Assembly (NCBI RefSeq): GCF_900105925.1
Contig: NZ_LT629791.1
Location: 4,806,001 to 4,870,000 of the forward strand
Length of the DNA stretch: 64,000 nucleotides
Source of the DNA: Jiangella alkaliphila
Lineage (GTDB): Bacteria > Actinomycetota > Actinomycetes > Jiangellales > Jiangellaceae
Direction: 5' to 3'
Shown one piece after another: positions 25,563 through 33,196 of this stretch (positions within the stretch are counted from its first letter, which is position 1; each line of letters starts with the position of its first letter). The translations under genes were made by a program, and so were the position numbers. The notes beneath the pieces were generated by a model, which saw only the letters and a list, made by a program, of their open reading frames with translations, was not told where the DNA came from and did not search any database.

Positions 25563-26357
25563 GTGCGGATCGCGGTGACCGGGGCGAGTGGACGGGTGGG
25601 CGGCCAGGTCGCCGAGCTGCTGGCGGCCGAGCCCGGCCACGAGGTGGTCGCGCTGGTGCGCCCGTCGAGCAGGTACGTCCCGCCGGCCGGCGTGACCGTC
25701 GCGGCGGCGGACTACGGCGACCCGGCGTCGCTGCACGCGGCGCTGAAGGGCGCCGACACGCTGGTCTTCGTGTCCAGCGACGGCCACGCGGCCACCGTCA
25801 TGCTGCACCACGTCAACGTCGTGCGGGCCGCCGCCGAGACCGGGGTCGGGCACGTCGTCGCGCTGAGCGGGCTGGACGTCGACGTCGAGTCGCCGTTCTG
25901 CTACGCGGTCACCAACGGGCACACCGAGGAGCTGCTGGCCGCGAGCGGCTGCGGCCTCTCGCTGGCGCGCGCCTCGGTGTACACCGAGTTCTTCGCCGGG
26001 CTGGTCCGCGGCGCACGGCGCGGCGACGAGGTCCGGCTGCCGGCCGGCGACGCCCGGGTGTCGCTGGTCGCGCGGGCCGACGTCGGGCGGTCGCTGGCCG
26101 CGCTGGCGCTGCGCCCGCCGTCGAACCGGCACCACGACCTCACCGGCCCCGCGGCGCTGGACCTCGCCGAGATCGTCGCCGCCCTCGAGCCCGGCGCCCG
26201 CTACGTCGATGTCCCACCGGCCGAGTACGTCGCCGCCCTGCTGGACGGCGGCGAGACGTCCTGGTGGGCGCACGCCTACGCGACGATGCTGGAGTCCATC
26301 CGGCTCGGCCGCTGGGCCACCGTGAGCGACGAGGTCGCCGCGCTCACCGGCGGCTGA
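25563..26357 (+). CDS. NmrA/QOR2-like NAD(P)-binding protein
   Basis: This 264-residue atypical short-chain dehydrogenase opens RIAVTGASGRVGGQVAELL (dinucleotide-binding GxxGxxG) and has an NmrA-like body with LVRPSSRY (basic, NADP-preferring) and VALSGLDVD. Members act as NADPH-dependent quinone reductases or redox sensors. TAAGGT (25551-25556) is 6 nt before GTG 25563, so it is leaderless. Its end overlaps the convergent FAD reductase gene by 14 nt. Confidence 0.85.
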   Translation: MRIAVTGASGRVGGQVAELLAAEPGHEVVALVRPSSRYVPPAGVTVAAADYGDPASLHAALKGADTLVFVSSDGHAATVMLHHVNVVRAAAETGVGHVVALSGLDVDVESPFCYAVTNGHTEELLAASGCGLSLARASVYTEFFAGLVRGARRGDEVRLPAGDARVSLVARADVGRSLAALALRPPSNRHHDLTGPAALDLAEIVAALEPGARYVDVPPAEYVAALLDGGETSWWAHAYATMLESIRLGRWATVSDEVAALTGG

Positions 26358-27741
26358 CGACCTGCGCCGGCAGCAGGTGCTCGCGGACCCACGCCTGGGT
26401 GGCCAGCTGGGTCGCGTCCCACGGTGACCCGAGCGGCGGGGTGTACGACAGGTCGAGCTCGCTGAAGGCGTCGACGGTCATGCCGTGGAACAGCGCGGTG
26501 GCGTAGGTGTCGACGCGCTTGGCGGTCTCGGTGCCGCGCGGCCCGACGAGCTGGGCGCCGAGCAGCAGGCCGGTGCCGGCGTCGCCGGTGATGCGGATGG
26601 CGATCGGCCGCGCACCCGGGTAGTACGCCTTGTGGTCGTCCGGGGTGGCGGTCGTGCTGACCGGCGCGAACCCGGCCGCAGCCGCCTCGTGCTCGCGCAG
26701 TCCCGTGCGGGCGGCCACCAGGTCGAACACCTTCACGACCTGGGTGCCGAGGCTGCCGGCGAACCCGGCCTGTCCGCCGAGCGCGTTCTCGCCGGCGACG
26801 CGGCCCTGCTTGTGCGCGGTGGTGCCCAGCGGCAGGTAGGTGACGCCGAGCTGACGATGATGCGTCACGACGCAGTCGCCGGCGGCCCACACGTGCGGCA
26901 GCCCGGTGGCCATGGTCTCGTCCACGACGACGGCGCCGCGCGGCCCGGTCCGCGCCCCGGCGGCCACGAGCAGGTCGGTGTCCGGCCGCACGCCCACCAC
27001 GACGAGGACGAGGTCGACGTCCCAGGCCAGCGGCTCGCCGTCCGGGCCGGCGCCGTCGACGTGCAGGCCGGACGTGCCGCGGGAGATCGCGGTGACCGTC
27101 GCGCTGGTGTGGACGGTGACGCCGTGCCGGTCCAGCTCGGCATGAACCAGCGCGCCGAGCTCCGGGTTGACGGTCGGCAGCACTTCGGGCAGCATCTCCA
27201 CCTGCGTCACGGCGATCCCGCGCGTGGTCAGGCCTTCGGCCATCTCCAGCCCGACGTACCCGGCGCCGACGATCAGCGCCGTCGACGGCTCGATTCGGTC
27301 CAGGCTCCGCTCCAGCGCGAACGTGTCGCCCATCGAATGCAGCACGTGCACCCCGTCGGCCGCGCCCAGCTCGTCCAGGCCGGCGATCGGCGGGCGCACC
27401 GGGAGCGCACCGGTGCCGACGATCAGCTCGTCGTAGTCCAGCGTCGTCTCGCTGCCGTCGCTCTCGCGCAGCGCCAGCCGCCGCCCGCCGACGTCGATCG
27501 CGGTGGCCAGCGTGTCCAGCCGCAGCCGCATCCCGGTCGCCTCGAGGTCGGCGTGGGTGCGGTGGGCCAGGTTCGACCAGTGGCCCACCTCGCCGGAGAG
27601 GTAGTACGGGATGCCGCAGATGGAGAAGTTCGGGTAGGCGTCGGCGACCACTACGGTCACGTCCGCGGACGGGTCCAGCTCGCGGGCGCGCAGCGCGGCG
27701 GAGATGCCGGCGTCGCTCCCGCCGATGGCGACGATGTGCAC
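26344..27741 (-). CDS. FAD-dependent CoA-disulfide-reductase-type oxidoreductase
   Basis: This 465-residue protein belongs to the pyridine nucleotide-disulfide oxidoreductase family. It has an N-terminal FAD site VAIGGSDAGISAALRAR, active-site NFSICGIPYY with a single Cys (C42) as in CoA disulfide reductase, NADH site VGAGYVGLEMAEGL, ATG-type GDCV motif and a C-terminal dimer domain. It follows the aquaporin gene by 11 nt and so belongs to the arsenic operon. A role in thiol or arsenic redox chemistry is inferred from context. GTG 27741 has GAGAGG upstream. Confidence 0.85.
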   Translation of the reverse strand: MHIVAIGGSDAGISAALRARELDPSADVTVVVADAYPNFSICGIPYYLSGEVGHWSNLAHRTHADLEATGMRLRLDTLATAIDVGGRRLALRESDGSETTLDYDELIVGTGALPVRPPIAGLDELGAADGVHVLHSMGDTFALERSLDRIEPSTALIVGAGYVGLEMAEGLTTRGIAVTQVEMLPEVLPTVNPELGALVHAELDRHGVTVHTSATVTAISRGTSGLHVDGAGPDGEPLAWDVDLVLVVVGVRPDTDLLVAAGARTGPRGAVVVDETMATGLPHVWAAGDCVVTHHRQLGVTYLPLGTTAHKQGRVAGENALGGQAGFAGSLGTQVVKVFDLVAARTGLREHEAAAAGFAPVSTTATPDDHKAYYPGARPIAIRITGDAGTGLLLGAQLVGPRGTETAKRVDTYATALFHGMTVDAFSELDLSYTPPLGSPWDATQLATQAWVREHLLPAQVVSRR

Positions 27742-27752
27742 GAGCGTTCCTC

Positions 27753-28433
27753 TCAGATGCGGACGGGTGTGGGCACGGGGTACAGGACGAGGACGAGCAG
27801 GACGCCGACGGCGCCACCCACCAGTTGGGCGCCGACGAAGGGCAGCACCGACGACGGCGCGATGCCGGCAAAGGTGTCGGTGAACATCCGCCCGACGGTG
27901 ACGGCCGGGTTGGCGAACGACGTCGAGCTGGTGAACCAGTACGCCGCCCCGATGTAGGCGCCGACCGCCGGCGCGACCACCGCGGCACGGCCGGAACGGA
28001 CCAGCGCGAAGATCAGCAGCACCAGCCCGGCCGTCGCGACCACCTCGCCGGCCAGCAGGCCGGTTCCGGTGCGCTCGGTCGTCGCCATCGCAGCGTCGAC
28101 GGAGAACATGACGTTCGCCAGCAGCGCCCCGACGATCCCACCGGCACCCTGCGCGACCACATACGCCGCCAGCTCGGCGCCGGACAGCCCGCCGCCCGAC
28201 CGGCGGCCCAGCCACCAGTCCGCCACCGACACCACCGGGTTGAAGTGCGCGCCGGACACCGGCCCGAACAGCAGGATCAACACCGCCAACCCCAGCACGG
28301 TCGCCGTGCTGTTCTGCAGCAGCTGCAGGCCCACGTCGTCCGGGGACAGCCGCTCGGCGGCGATCCCGGAGCCGACCACGACAGCGACCAGCAGACCTGT
28401 GCCGAGGAACTCGGCGAGCAAGCGTCGATGCAT
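27753..28433 (-). CDS. aqpS: MIP-family aquaglyceroporin (AqpS-like)
   Basis: This 226-residue channel protein has six membrane segments and the two half-helix motifs HFNPVVS and FANPAVT (first NPV instead of NPA). In ars operons such channels let arsenite made by arsenate reductase leave the cell down its gradient, as described for Sinorhizobium AqpS. It is divergent from the ArsR-ArsC fusion and shares its operator region. ATG 28433 or GTG 28436 may start it. Confidence 0.87.
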   Translation of the reverse strand: MHRRLLAEFLGTGLLVAVVVGSGIAAERLSPDDVGLQLLQNSTATVLGLAVLILLFGPVSGAHFNPVVSVADWWLGRRSGGGLSGAELAAYVVAQGAGGIVGALLANVMFSVDAAMATTERTGTGLLAGEVVATAGLVLLIFALVRSGRAAVVAPAVGAYIGAAYWFTSSTSFANPAVTVGRMFTDTFAGIAPSSVLPFVGAQLVGGAVGVLLVLVLYPVPTPVRI

Positions 28434-28462
28434 CACGGCGTCAGCTTGACGGCTCGCTTTAA

Positions 28463-28478
28463 CTCAGTCAAGATTGAG
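28463..28478. promoter_or_regulatory. ArsR operator between aqpS and the arsR-arsC fusion
   Basis: CTCAGTCAAGATTGAG is an imperfect 16-bp dyad (12 of 16 positions symmetric) 3 nt upstream of ATG 28482. It overlaps the likely -10 AAGATT (28470-28475), so repressor binding would block a leaderless transcript. Confidence 0.65.
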
Positions 28479-28481
28479 ACA

Positions 28482-29153
28482 ATGAACGTTGAGCGAACTG
28501 CCCTGGAGCGGCGCGCCGCCAAGCACGCGGCGCTGGCCGACCCGTCCAGGCTGCACATCGTCGACGTCCTCAGCCTCGGCGACCGCTCCCCCGGCGAGCT
28601 GCAGGCTGACCTGGGCATGCCGTCGAACCTGCTGGCCCATCACCTCAGGACGCTCGAATCGGCGGGGCTGCTGACGCGCACCAGGTCCGAGGCGGACCGG
28701 CGGCGCAGCTACGTCCGGCTCACGCCCGGCGCGCTCGACGGCCTCGTGCCCGGCGCCGCCGGCGAGGCACACCGGGTCGTGTTCGTCTGCACCGCCAACT
28801 CCGCCCGCTCACAGCTCGCCGCCGCGCTCTGGCGACGGGCCAGCGAGATCCCCGCCGCGTCCGCGGGCACCCACCCGGCCGGCCGCGTCGACCCCGGCGC
28901 CGCCGCCGCGGCCCGGCGGCACCGCTTCGCGCTGCGGGCGACCCGGCCGCGTCGCCTGGCCGACATCGCCGCCGCCGACGACTTCGTCATCACCGTCTGC
29001 GACCACGCCCACGAGGAGCTAGGCGACCTCGGCGGCCTGCACTGGTCCATCCCCGACCCCGTCCGCGTCGGCACCGACGACGCCTTCGACGCCACCGTCA
29101 GCACGCTCGCCCACCGCGTCGACGGACTCGCCGCACGCCTCGCGGCCACCTGA
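28482..29153 (+). CDS. ArsR repressor fused to LMW-phosphatase-type arsenate reductase
   Basis: The protein has 223 residues. The N-terminal winged helix (1-90, HTH around LQADLGMPSNLLAHHLRTLE) is ArsR-like. The C-terminal part (97-223) is low-molecular-weight phosphatase/ArsC-like, with P-loop C103-TANSA-R109-S and an Asp in SIPDPV. The ArsR part contains no cysteine, so the usual arsenite-binding Cys set is absent; the inducer may be sensed by the fused domain. It is divergent from aqpS and followed by a second reductase after 25 nt. The fusion is complete and in one frame. Confidence 0.85.
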   Translation: MNVERTALERRAAKHAALADPSRLHIVDVLSLGDRSPGELQADLGMPSNLLAHHLRTLESAGLLTRTRSEADRRRSYVRLTPGALDGLVPGAAGEAHRVVFVCTANSARSQLAAALWRRASEIPAASAGTHPAGRVDPGAAAAARRHRFALRATRPRRLADIAAADDFVITVCDHAHEELGDLGGLHWSIPDPVRVGTDDAFDATVSTLAHRVDGLAARLAAT

Positions 29154-29178: not shown

Positions 29179-29832
29179 ATGACGAACACCGGCGAACGCG
29201 AACCGATCACCCTGGACCAGCAGTACGCCCTCACCACCGCCGCCACCCGGCTGGCCGGCGACTTCGAGGGGACGTTCGGCCAGGAGACGATCGAGCGGTT
29301 CCTGCACACGTCCTACGACCAGTTCGCCGGCCGCGCCGTCGTCGCGAACTTCCTGCCGCTGCTGGCCGAACGCTTCGCCCGCCAGCGACTCACCGCGCTG
29401 GCCCGGGTCGAGGGACGCAGCCACGACGGCCGGCCCACCGTGCTGTTCCTGTGCGTGCACAACGCCGGACGGTCACAGATGGCGCTCGGCTTCTTCCAGC
29501 ACCACGCCGGCGACGACGCCGTCGCGTGGTCCGGCGGCTCCGAGCCCGGCGAGCGGATCAACCCGGTCGCCGTCGCCGCCATGACCGAACGCGGCATCGA
29601 CATCTCCGGCGAGTTCCCCAAGCCCTGGACCGACGAGATCGTCAAGGCCGCCGACGTCGTCGTCACCATGGGCTGCGGCGACGCCTGCCCCGTCTTCCCC
29701 GGCAAGCGCTACGAGGACTGGACCCTCGACGACCCCGCCGGCCAGGACCTCGCGGACGTCCGGCCGATCCGCGACGAGATCGAGCGGCGAGTGCTCACCC
29801 TGCTGGACGAGGTCGGCGTGCGGGCTCGCTAG
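29179..29832 (+). CDS. arsC: Arsenate reductase with N-terminal three-helix domain
   Basis: This 217-residue protein has a helical N-terminal part (10-75, LDQQYALTTAATRLAGDFEG) followed by a LMW-phosphatase fold with LFLCVHNAGRSQMA (C92, R98), VVTMGCGDACPVFPGKRYEDW and DPAG. This two-part layout is that of actinobacterial mycothiol-linked arsenate reductases. It reduces arsenate to arsenite. GAGAGGAG precedes ATG 29179. Its stop overlaps the convergent cation-transporter gene by 4 nt. Confidence 0.9.
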   Translation: MTNTGEREPITLDQQYALTTAATRLAGDFEGTFGQETIERFLHTSYDQFAGRAVVANFLPLLAERFARQRLTALARVEGRSHDGRPTVLFLCVHNAGRSQMALGFFQHHAGDDAVAWSGGSEPGERINPVAVAAMTERGIDISGEFPKPWTDEIVKAADVVVTMGCGDACPVFPGKRYEDWTLDDPAGQDLADVRPIRDEIERRVLTLLDEVGVRAR

Positions 29833-30524
29833 CCGTCGCAGCAGTCGCAGTCCGGTCCGCAGCCGTCCGCCTCCGGGTCGCGCAGCAGCGCGCCGGCCGT
29901 CGTCGCGCAGGCGTCGCCGCGCCAGGCCTCGAGCCCTTCACGGACCGCGAACCCGGCGATGACCAGCGCCGCCAGCGGGTCGGCCCACCACCAGCCGAGC
30001 GCCGAGTTCAGCACCAGGCCGGTCAGCAGCACCGCCGACAGGTAGCTGCAGATCAGCGTCTGCTTCGAGTCGGCGATGACAGCGGCCGAGCCCAGCGCGC
30101 GCCCGGTGCGCCGCTCGGCGTAGGACAACGCCGGCATGACCCCGAGGCTGACGGCCGCGAGGACGATCCCGACGGTGCTGTGGTCGGCGTCGGCGCCGCC
30201 GACGAGGGCGCGGACCGCCTCGAACCCGACGTACGCGGCCAGCGCGAAGAACGAGAACGCGACGATCCGCAGCGCCGTCCGCTCGCGCGTCTCGTGGTCG
30301 CGCCCGGCGAACTGCCAGGCGATCGCGGCGGCCGACACGACCTCGACGACGGAGTCCAGCCCGAACCCGATCAGCGCGGCCGACGACGCCGCCGCGCCGG
30401 CCGAGATCGCGACGACCGCCTCGACCACGTTGTAGCCGATGGTGGTCGCGACGATCAGCCGGACCCGTCGGCGCAGCACCTCGCGCCGGCGCGGATCGGT
30501 CAGCGGCGTGATGGGAAGGCTCAT
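29829..30524 (-). CDS. Cation-diffusion-facilitator-type metal transporter with Cys-rich tail
   Basis: The protein has 231 residues and about five to six membrane segments, with the metal-site motifs GFGLDSVVEVVSA and WWADPLAALVIAG. The C-terminus CGPDCDCCDG is a short Cys-rich tail likely to bind soft metals. It is co-transcribed with the CmtR-like repressor through an ATGA overlap, so the probable substrate is Cd, Pb or a similar metal ion. It lacks the usual long cytosolic CDF domain. Confidence 0.85.
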   Translation of the reverse strand: MSLPITPLTDPRRREVLRRRVRLIVATTIGYNVVEAVVAISAGAAASSAALIGFGLDSVVEVVSAAAIAWQFAGRDHETRERTALRIVAFSFFALAAYVGFEAVRALVGGADADHSTVGIVLAAVSLGVMPALSYAERRTGRALGSAAVIADSKQTLICSYLSAVLLTGLVLNSALGWWWADPLAALVIAGFAVREGLEAWRGDACATTAGALLRDPEADGCGPDCDCCDG

Positions 30525-30853
30525 CGGCAGGAGCACCCCTCGGGCCCACAGCAGTCCGGATCGACCACGAGCACCAGCTCCAGCAACTCGCCCAGCGCCG
30601 CGCCGAGGTGGGCGTCGGCCAGCCGGTACCGCGTCCGCCGCCCCTCCGGCGTCGCCTCGACCAGCCCGCAGCCACGCAGGCAGGTGAGCTGGTTCGACAT
30701 CACCTGACGCGACACCCCCAGCTCGTCGGCGAGGTCGGACGGGAACGCCGGCCCGTCGCGCAGCGCCAGCAGGATCCGCGCCCGCGTTCCGTCGGACAGC
30801 GCGTACCCGAGCCGGGCCAGCGCGTCGGTGTGCGACGCCGTCACCGTGGTCAT
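30521..30853 (-). CDS. cmtR: CmtR-like ArsR/SmtB metal-sensing repressor
   Basis: This 110-residue winged-helix protein has Cys positions in LTCLRGCGLV (C58, C62) that match the DNA-helix cysteines of mycobacterial CmtR, a Cd/Pb sensor. The C-terminus DCCGPEGCSCR supplies further thiols, as does the Cys of CmtR's C-terminal region. It should repress itself and the transporter. TACTGT (30866-30861) is 7 nt before ATG 30853, giving a leaderless mRNA whose -10 lies inside the operator dyad. Confidence 0.9.
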   Translation of the reverse strand: MTTVTASHTDALARLGYALSDGTRARILLALRDGPAFPSDLADELGVSRQVMSNQLTCLRGCGLVEATPEGRRTRYRLADAHLGAALGELLELVLVVDPDCCGPEGCSCR

Positions 30854-32359: not shown

Positions 32360-33196
32360 ATGACGACCCTGGCCGCCCCGGCGGCGCTGCTCCCGGCCGA
32401 CTCCGCCGCCGACTACGCCGAGTGCTTCGCCGCGCTCTCCGACCCCACCCGAGTCCGGCTGCTGCACGCCGTCGCCACCTCGAACGGCGGCCTGACCGTG
32501 GGCGAGCTGGCCGAACAGCTCGGCGTCAGCCAGTCGACCTGCTCTCACCACGTGCGCAAACTCGCGGCCGCCCGGTTCGTGCACGTGTCGAAGGTCGGCA
32601 CCAGCACGCGCGTCACCGTCAACGAGGCGTGCTGCACCGGTCTCCCCCACATGGCCGACGTCGTCATGGGCAGCGTCGGCGCGACCCGCCCGTGCTGCCC
32701 CGACGACGTCCCGGCCGACGTCACCGTCCGGGCGCTCGACGACGCGGACTGGCCGGCGGTGCGGCGGATCTACCGCGAGGGCATCGACACCGGCATCGCC
32801 ACCTTCGAGACGTCGGTGCCGCCGAGCACGCGGCTGGCGGCGAAGTGGCTGCCCGGGCACCGCTGGGTCGCCGAGATCGACGGCGCCGTCGTCGGCTGGA
32901 CCTCAGTCGCCCCCGTCTCCACCCGCGACTGCTACCGCGGCGTCGGCGAGACGTCCGTCTACGTCGCCGACGGCGCGCGCGGCCGCGGGGTCGGGAAGGC
33001 GCTGCTGCGGCGGCAGGTGACGGCGGCCGACGCGGACGGGCTGTGGACGCTGCAGACGTCGGTGTTCACCGAGAACCGGGCCAGCCTGTCCCTGCACCAC
33101 CAGGCCGGCTACCGCACCGTCGGCGTCCGCGAGCGCATCGCGCAGCGCGACGGTGGCTGGCACGACACCGTTCTGCTGGAGCGGCGGGCATCATGA
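32360..33196 (+). CDS. ArsR repressor fused to ArsN-like GNAT acetyltransferase
   Basis: The protein has 278 residues. The N-terminal ArsR winged helix (18-85) contains C61 in the recognition region (QSTCSHHV), and the Cys pairs C91-C92 and C112-C113 follow, likely an As(III)-binding set. The C-terminal GNAT domain (about 120-278) carries VRRIYREGIDTGIATFET, SVYVADGARGRGVGKALL and FTENRASLSLHHQAGY, as in phosphinothricin/arsinothricin N-acetyltransferases. It probably controls itself and the ArsO-like gene. ATG 32360 is 7 nt after TAGACT (leaderless). Confidence 0.88.
   Translation: MTTLAAPAALLPADSAADYAECFAALSDPTRVRLLHAVATSNGGLTVGELAEQLGVSQSTCSHHVRKLAAARFVHVSKVGTSTRVTVNEACCTGLPHMADVVMGSVGATRPCCPDDVPADVTVRALDDADWPAVRRIYREGIDTGIATFETSVPPSTRLAAKWLPGHRWVAEIDGAVVGWTSVAPVSTRDCYRGVGETSVYVADGARGRGVGKALLRRQVTAADADGLWTLQTSVFTENRASLSLHHQAGYRTVGVRERIAQRDGGWHDTVLLERRAS

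Follow-up and report, generated by a model that had tools for sequence, protein, structure and literature searches.

A cysteine-free ArsR domain fused to an ArsC-like domain in Jiangella alkaliphila: a candidate arsenate-responsive repressor

How could an ArsR-type repressor respond to arsenic when its DNA-binding part does not contain a single cysteine? This question is raised by a fusion gene of Jiangella alkaliphila, which we analysed within a window of 64,000 nucleotides (positions 4,806,001 to 4,870,000 of contig NZ_LT629791.1); positions below are those of the window unless stated otherwise.

The fusion protein and its cysteines

The open reading frame at 28482–29153 encodes a protein of 223 aa. 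It had been described in a first-pass annotation as a fusion of ArsR with an arsenate reductase-type domain, and this description was borne out by Pfam, in which HTH_20 (residues 18–66), HTH_5 (20–65) and LMWPc (99–216) all scored above their cut-offs, LMWPc with 54.3 bits against a cut-off of 23.2. In NCBIfam, the ArsR/SmtB subfamily model NF033788 fell short of its cut-off (49 bits against 55), and the arsenate-reductase models matched weakly. An ArsR-type winged helix-turn-helix and a domain with the fold and P-loop of the low-molecular-weight phosphatase (LMW-PTP) superfamily are thus present in one frame, which is intact in full-length homologues. The features of the gene are as follows:

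28482–29153, plus strand: ArsR–ArsC-like fusion gene, 223 aa
28482–28721, plus strand: winged-helix ArsR/SmtB-type part (residues 1–80), without cysteine (Pfam HTH_20/HTH_5, AlphaFold2 model, cysteine counts)
28770–29150, plus strand: fused LMW-PTP/ArsC-fold domain, about residues 97–223 (Pfam LMWPc, Foldseek)
28788–28811, plus strand: P-loop CTANSARS with the nucleophile C103, R109 and S110 (conservation)
28998–29000, plus strand: C173, equivalent of ArsC Cys82 (alignment with ArsC, conservation)
29019–29021, plus strand: L180, equivalent of the resolving Cys89 of ArsC (HMMER alignments to 1jl3 and 8p5n)

An AlphaFold2 model was built from 53 aligned sequences (mean pLDDT 91.7, pTM 0.87). In this model, four helices and the wing lead straight into the initial strands of the phosphatase fold, and no alpha5 dimerisation helix intervenes. 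Alpha5 is the helix through which ArsR/SmtB proteins normally dimerise. The Foldseek matches were ArsC and LMW-PTP structures with a probability of 1.00, and the eighth in rank was 1LK0, entitled 'Disulfide intermediate of C89L Arsenate reductase from pI258'. The nearest homologues are Jiangella proteins.

C103 and C173 are the only cysteines of the fusion. Residues 1–102 are free of cysteine, which confirms the earlier remark that the first 100 residues have none and that the classical three-thiol site is missing, and the absence is family-wide. We examined 115 non-identical homologues, falling into 47 clusters at less than 70% identity (a smaller version of the set contained 93 sequences). 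The ArsR part has no cysteine in 107 of them, one in seven and two in one, and no column of this part is a conserved cysteine column, with at most two sequences carrying the residue at any position. Neither a three-thiol nor a two-thiol As(III) site was found in the ArsR domain of the fusion or across the 115 homologues, and these statistics rule out that cysteine is absent by chance from one protein. The stray cysteines in 8 of the 115 nevertheless count against the reading that we favour below. A recent or accidental fusion was also ruled out, since the joined frame is kept in more than 100 homologues and the linker is nearly fixed: from the wing residue Tyr77 to C103 it measures 26 residues in 96 of the 115, and 25–31 residues throughout the family as against 41–54 in other LMW-PTP fusions. 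A strong family match was obtained in 43 of the 395 sampled genomes of the class Actinomycetes, belonging to 20 of 138 genera.

In the fused domain, C103, R109, C173, D174 and D192 are invariant (115/115), S110 was kept in 93 of 93 homologues, and D192 and P193 form the DP motif, retained in the fusion. Position 180 is occupied by leucine in 98 homologues, isoleucine in 11, methionine in four, valine in one and proline in one, so that an equivalent of the resolving Cys89 occurs in none. HMMER placed this residue opposite the second redox cysteine of both B. subtilis ArsC (VVTLCGDAADKC) and D. indicus ArsC2 (VITVCDRAEANC), which is Cys89 in ArsC numbering. Because residue 180 aligns with Cys89 and is never cysteine, the family resembles a natural C89L/I/M variant of ArsC: it has the C-x5-R-S P-loop and the Cys82 equivalent of the thioredoxin-type enzymes and lacks their third cysteine. 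A mycothiol-type enzyme was ruled out by the P-loop, which reads CTANSARS and not the GNGGKS of the Cg_ArsC1/2 type (CVKNGGKS in Rhodococcus erythropolis PR4). Nearly all stand-alone ArsC proteins in the comparison set carry CGDxCP, and the third cysteine is kept in nearly all other ArsC-fold proteins collected, the exceptions being mycothiol-type sequences and two further proteins (L033 and L149).

The first-pass annotation had also suggested that the P-loop of the fused domain senses the oxyanion or arsenite. This part is supported in so far as the conserved reactive groups lie in the fused domain; with the thiol site absent family-wide, it takes the fewest assumptions to place sensing in the P-loop. 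The annotation had noticed neither C173 nor the lack of the third catalytic cysteine, nor the adjoining second ArsC and the divergent aquaporin described below.

Upstream region and gene neighbourhood

The genes and putative control elements around the fusion are:

26344–27741, minus strand: CoA-disulfide-reductase-like flavoprotein gene, after the aquaporin gene (TIGR03385, 2e-89, below its cut-off)
27753–28433, minus strand: divergent aquaporin of the MIP family, candidate arsenite exit channel (Pfam MIP, 2e-22)
28443–28471, minus strand: putative aquaporin promoter, −35 TTGACT, 17 nt, −10 CAAGCT (predicted from the sequence)
28446–28474, plus strand: putative fusion promoter, −35 TTGACG (28446–28451), 17-nt spacer, −10 CAAGAT (28469–28474)
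28463–28478, unstranded: putative operator CTCAGTCAAGATTGAG, near-palindromic, conserved before the ATG in homologues
29179–29832, plus strand: separate thioredoxin-type arsenate reductase (ArsC), P-loop CVHNAGRS plus CGDACP

The putative −10 element of the fusion gene lies 7 nt from the ATG; judged by this spacing, the mRNA is probably leaderless. Of 90 distinct upstream regions, 87 have the same −35/−10/ATG geometry, and the element TTGAC...CTCAGTCAAnATTGAG-nCA-ATG is common to regions from Jiangella to Arthrobacter, Microbacterium and Rhodococcus. A strict palindrome was found in 34 of the 90 regions and in none of the shuffles, so in most homologues the putative operator is a near-palindrome, a point against the reading that we favour below. 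On the opposite strand, the TTGACT of the aquaporin promoter falls inside this near-palindrome and its CAAGCT lies 6 nt before the GTG, and a single dimer on 28463–28478 could thus close both divergent promoters. It was found that CTCARTNNNNAYTGAG matches exactly only once in the 7.7 Mb genome, at the putative operator itself; with one mismatch the pattern occurs at six places, compared with four for a reversed-pattern control. A role as a global regulator was ruled out on these counts.

In the window, the gene order is CoA-disulfide-reductase-like gene and aquaporin on the minus strand, fusion and ArsC on the plus strand; this ArsC has an N-terminal three-helix domain and three catalytic cysteines. 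A scan of the genome collection gave 538 stretches that encode relatives, of which the best 80 were used as loci, their neighbouring genes being identified by searches with reference proteins. Among the 75 of these with enough sequence, a divergent aquaporin was present within 400 bp upstream of the fusion in 64 and a thioredoxin-type ArsC directly downstream in 65. The best 80 of 538 also contained a cysteine-type ArsR (44/80), an ArsO-like flavoprotein gene (44/80), a CoA-disulfide-reductase-like gene (40/80), an ArsN-type acetyltransferase (25/80) and a thioredoxin reductase (17/80); a CxC-type motif was seen in 25 of 31 neighbouring ArsR proteins of a sampled cluster. A family search of the J. 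alkaliphila genome, a single contig with several arsC genes, found neither Acr3 nor ArsB, which makes the aquaporin the likely exit for arsenite. In Sinorhizobium meliloti, an aquaporin and ArsC form such a detoxification route, encoded by arsR-aqpS-arsC.

Several other genes of the region were recorded. Between arsC and a flavoprotein gene, a CmtR-like ArsR/SmtB repressor overlaps a cation-diffusion-facilitator gene (29829–30853, minus strand), and the same pair is present in several homologous loci. At a distance of 3 kb, an ArsR helix-turn-helix and an ArsN1-type (arsinothricin/phosphinothricin) N-acetyltransferase share one frame (32360–33196, plus strand), a second regulator–enzyme fusion; the Arthrobacter and Microbacterium loci contain ArsR and GNAT separately. 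In five loci (L099, L106, L110, L113 and L123), the arsenate island has genes for phosphate uptake (pst, pit) close by.

Proposed mechanism and alternative readings

We consider it about an even chance that the fusion is an autorepressor of the aquaporin/arsC locus in which the fused domain has taken over sensing from the ArsR thiols, a C103–C173 disulfide being the probable signalling state. More tentatively, and with somewhat less than even confidence, we suggest that the catalytic cycle stops after the first disulfide, so that one arsenate turnover, and not the binding of phosphate, releases the repressor from DNA. The protein would occupy a single site in the intergenic region shared with the divergent aquaporin gene and keep both the aquaporin and the fusion–arsC operon off. 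When arsenate (possibly arsenite) reached the P-loop, C103 would attack it; C173 would then attack C103, freeing arsenite and leaving the C103–C173 disulfide. With leucine in place of Cys89, the usual route by which this disulfide passes to thioredoxin would be closed, and it would persist as the signal. Mutation of Cys89 is known to trap the corresponding C10–C82 disulfide in ArsC (pI258 C89L structure, PDB 1LK0). Through the short linker of 26 residues (Tyr77–C103), the disulfide would shift the winged helix off the operator. The adjoining three-cysteine ArsC would carry out bulk reduction, the aquaporin would let arsenite out, and a cellular thiol system would reset the signalling disulfide.

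Cells contain millimolar phosphate and far less arsenate, and a sensor that relied on binding only would therefore struggle to discriminate between them. Phosphate and sulfate can bind a P-loop and cannot be reduced, so it is the chemistry that would give specificity for arsenate. If this is true, the sensor would discriminate because it has to carry out the initial half of arsenate reduction, and an enzyme would have been turned into a signalling domain by the loss of one cysteine. Three residues carry the whole proposal: L180 and the two cysteines. The family, fairly common in Actinomycetes and with an apparently compact conserved control site, might also supply an arsenate-specific part for biosensors.

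The same conservation data from the 115 homologues are consistent with simple adduct formation, in which arsenite (or arsenate) binds at C103 with C173 as a second thiol. C103 could bind arsenite directly and no latch would then be needed, which speaks against the favoured reading; a pI258 ArsC mutant structure with arsenite exists (PDB 1LJU), As(III) is the usual signal of ArsR proteins, and the adjoining ArsC would supply it. We regard this as possible, though rather unlikely: there are two conserved thiols and not the three of classical As(III) sites, a cysteine-containing ArsR is already present in 44 of 80 loci (best 80 of 538), and the invariant D192 and the strict loss of the third cysteine would be left unexplained. 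The proposal of the first-pass annotation that the sensor is also the enzyme seems more doubtful still; mycothiol or some other thiol would then have to stand in for the third cysteine. C103, R109, D192-P193 and C173 are all kept, mycothiol-dependent ArsC enzymes are described in actinobacteria (PMC6514093), and a Paracoccus ArsRC is reported to couple reduction to sensing in one protein (Chen et al. 2022, as presented in PMC9479143). However, the resolving cysteine is found in 0 of 115 homologues, the P-loop is not of the mycothiol type, and a dedicated ArsC adjoins the fusion in 65 of 75 loci (best 80 of 538). Moreover, the ArsR part of our family has no conserved thiols that could receive the product arsenite, so the Paracoccus channelling model is not transferable to it. 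The claim of an enzymatic role was thus not upheld, although slow or mycothiol-assisted turnover may occur.

Sensing of thiol redox state and of phosphate are both less likely than these two alternatives. Active-site cysteines of the LMW-PTP type are prone to oxidation, and a C103–C173 disulfide could form under oxidative or disulfide stress, with arsenic as one cause among others. The CoA-disulfide-reductase-like gene in 40 and thioredoxin reductase in 17 of the best 80 of 538 loci would fit this, but the other neighbours are arsenic genes (ArsC, ArsO-like, ArsN-type, ArsR) and strict conservation of the oxyanion-binding residues R109 and D192 would not be needed; we consider this reading improbable. 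It is slightly more improbable again that the P-loop reads phosphate and not arsenic. P-loops of this fold do bind phosphate and sulfate, as in structures among the Foldseek matches, and a minority of loci have pst or pit genes close to the fusion, in divergent orientation in the case of R. erythropolis PR4. Most loci, however, are arsenic islands, and phosphate binding does not need C173.

Other ArsR–ArsC fusions and known arsenic systems

In trees of the ArsC domain, the fusions formed three groups, each monophyletic: the J. alkaliphila family (group A, support 98/95), a second actinobacterial group (group B) and alphaproteobacterial fusions (group P). Group B has a longer linker, and the palindrome upstream of its genes is another one, for example ATCAAACCAGTTTGAT. 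The third catalytic cysteine is mostly kept in groups B and P; one group B protein, L033, has lost it too (LCDKVREYADEHG), possibly in parallel to group A. A second fusion of the J. alkaliphila genome (L004; about 4974500–4975600 of the contig, minus strand; 333 aa) consists of an ArsR part without cysteine, a three-helix domain and a three-cysteine thioredoxin-type ArsC. It nests among thioredoxin-type ArsC proteins and is therefore a separate event, which gives at least two origins of the fusion.

All six group P genes fetched (L125–L130, from Paracoccus, Rhodobacter, Cereibacter and Leisingera plasmids) lie directly upstream of the ArsJ-associated GAPDH gene and arsJ. These two genes provide an export route for arsenate only, without reduction. 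There would be little need for a reductase in this position, which fits a sensory role of fused ArsC-like domains in general. The ArsR part of these six proteins has a CC...C motif in some and no cysteine in others, which suggests mixed modes of sensing. Unlike group A, the alphaproteobacterial fusions fetched have three cysteines in the ArsC part and longer linkers. The aquaporin and ArsC route is shared with S. meliloti, where ArsR is a stand-alone protein.

The fusion as such is not new, as actinobacterial examples were published as clusters C4 and C7 (Firrincieli et al. 2019, PMC6514093) and a Paracoccus one by Chen et al. 2022 (doi 10.1111/1462-2920.15957, via PMC9479143). The former include RER_RS00775 of R. 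erythropolis PR4 (pREL1), an orthologue with 60% identity that shares both the operator-like element and the downstream ArsC; it precedes ArsC, ArsR, Acr3, ArsC, TrxB, ArsO, ArsD and ArsA and is divergent from the pstSCAB phosphate transport genes. The passages of PMC6514093 that note the fusion do not discuss the cysteine-free ArsR part, the missing third cysteine, the operator or a mechanism. In the literature searched, we found neither the cysteine-free ArsR nor the invariant pattern of two cysteines without a resolving one, the missing alpha5 or the leaderless divergent operator, and we came across no experimental study of a group A protein. The cysteine pattern of group A and its strict conservation appear to be new, with possible overlap with Chen et al. 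2022, whose work we cite through PMC9479143.

According to the account in PMC9479143, Paracoccus ArsRC likewise joins ArsR and ArsC in a single protein, for which arsenate sensing was proposed; its ArsC part reduces As(V) and its ArsR part senses As(III), unlike the arrangement that we propose here. Thermus thermophilus TtSmtB is also an ArsR/SmtB repressor, and arsenate is its reported preferred signal (PMC5658604); it differs in being a stand-alone protein with three cysteines of its own and no attached domain. With the thioredoxin-type ArsC of S. aureus pI258 and B. subtilis, the J. alkaliphila fusion shares the fold, the C-x5-R-S P-loop, the Cys82 equivalent and the DP motif, whereas it has no Cys89 equivalent and carries a DNA-binding domain. 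In this respect it resembles the artificial C89L mutant of ArsC (PDB 1LK0).
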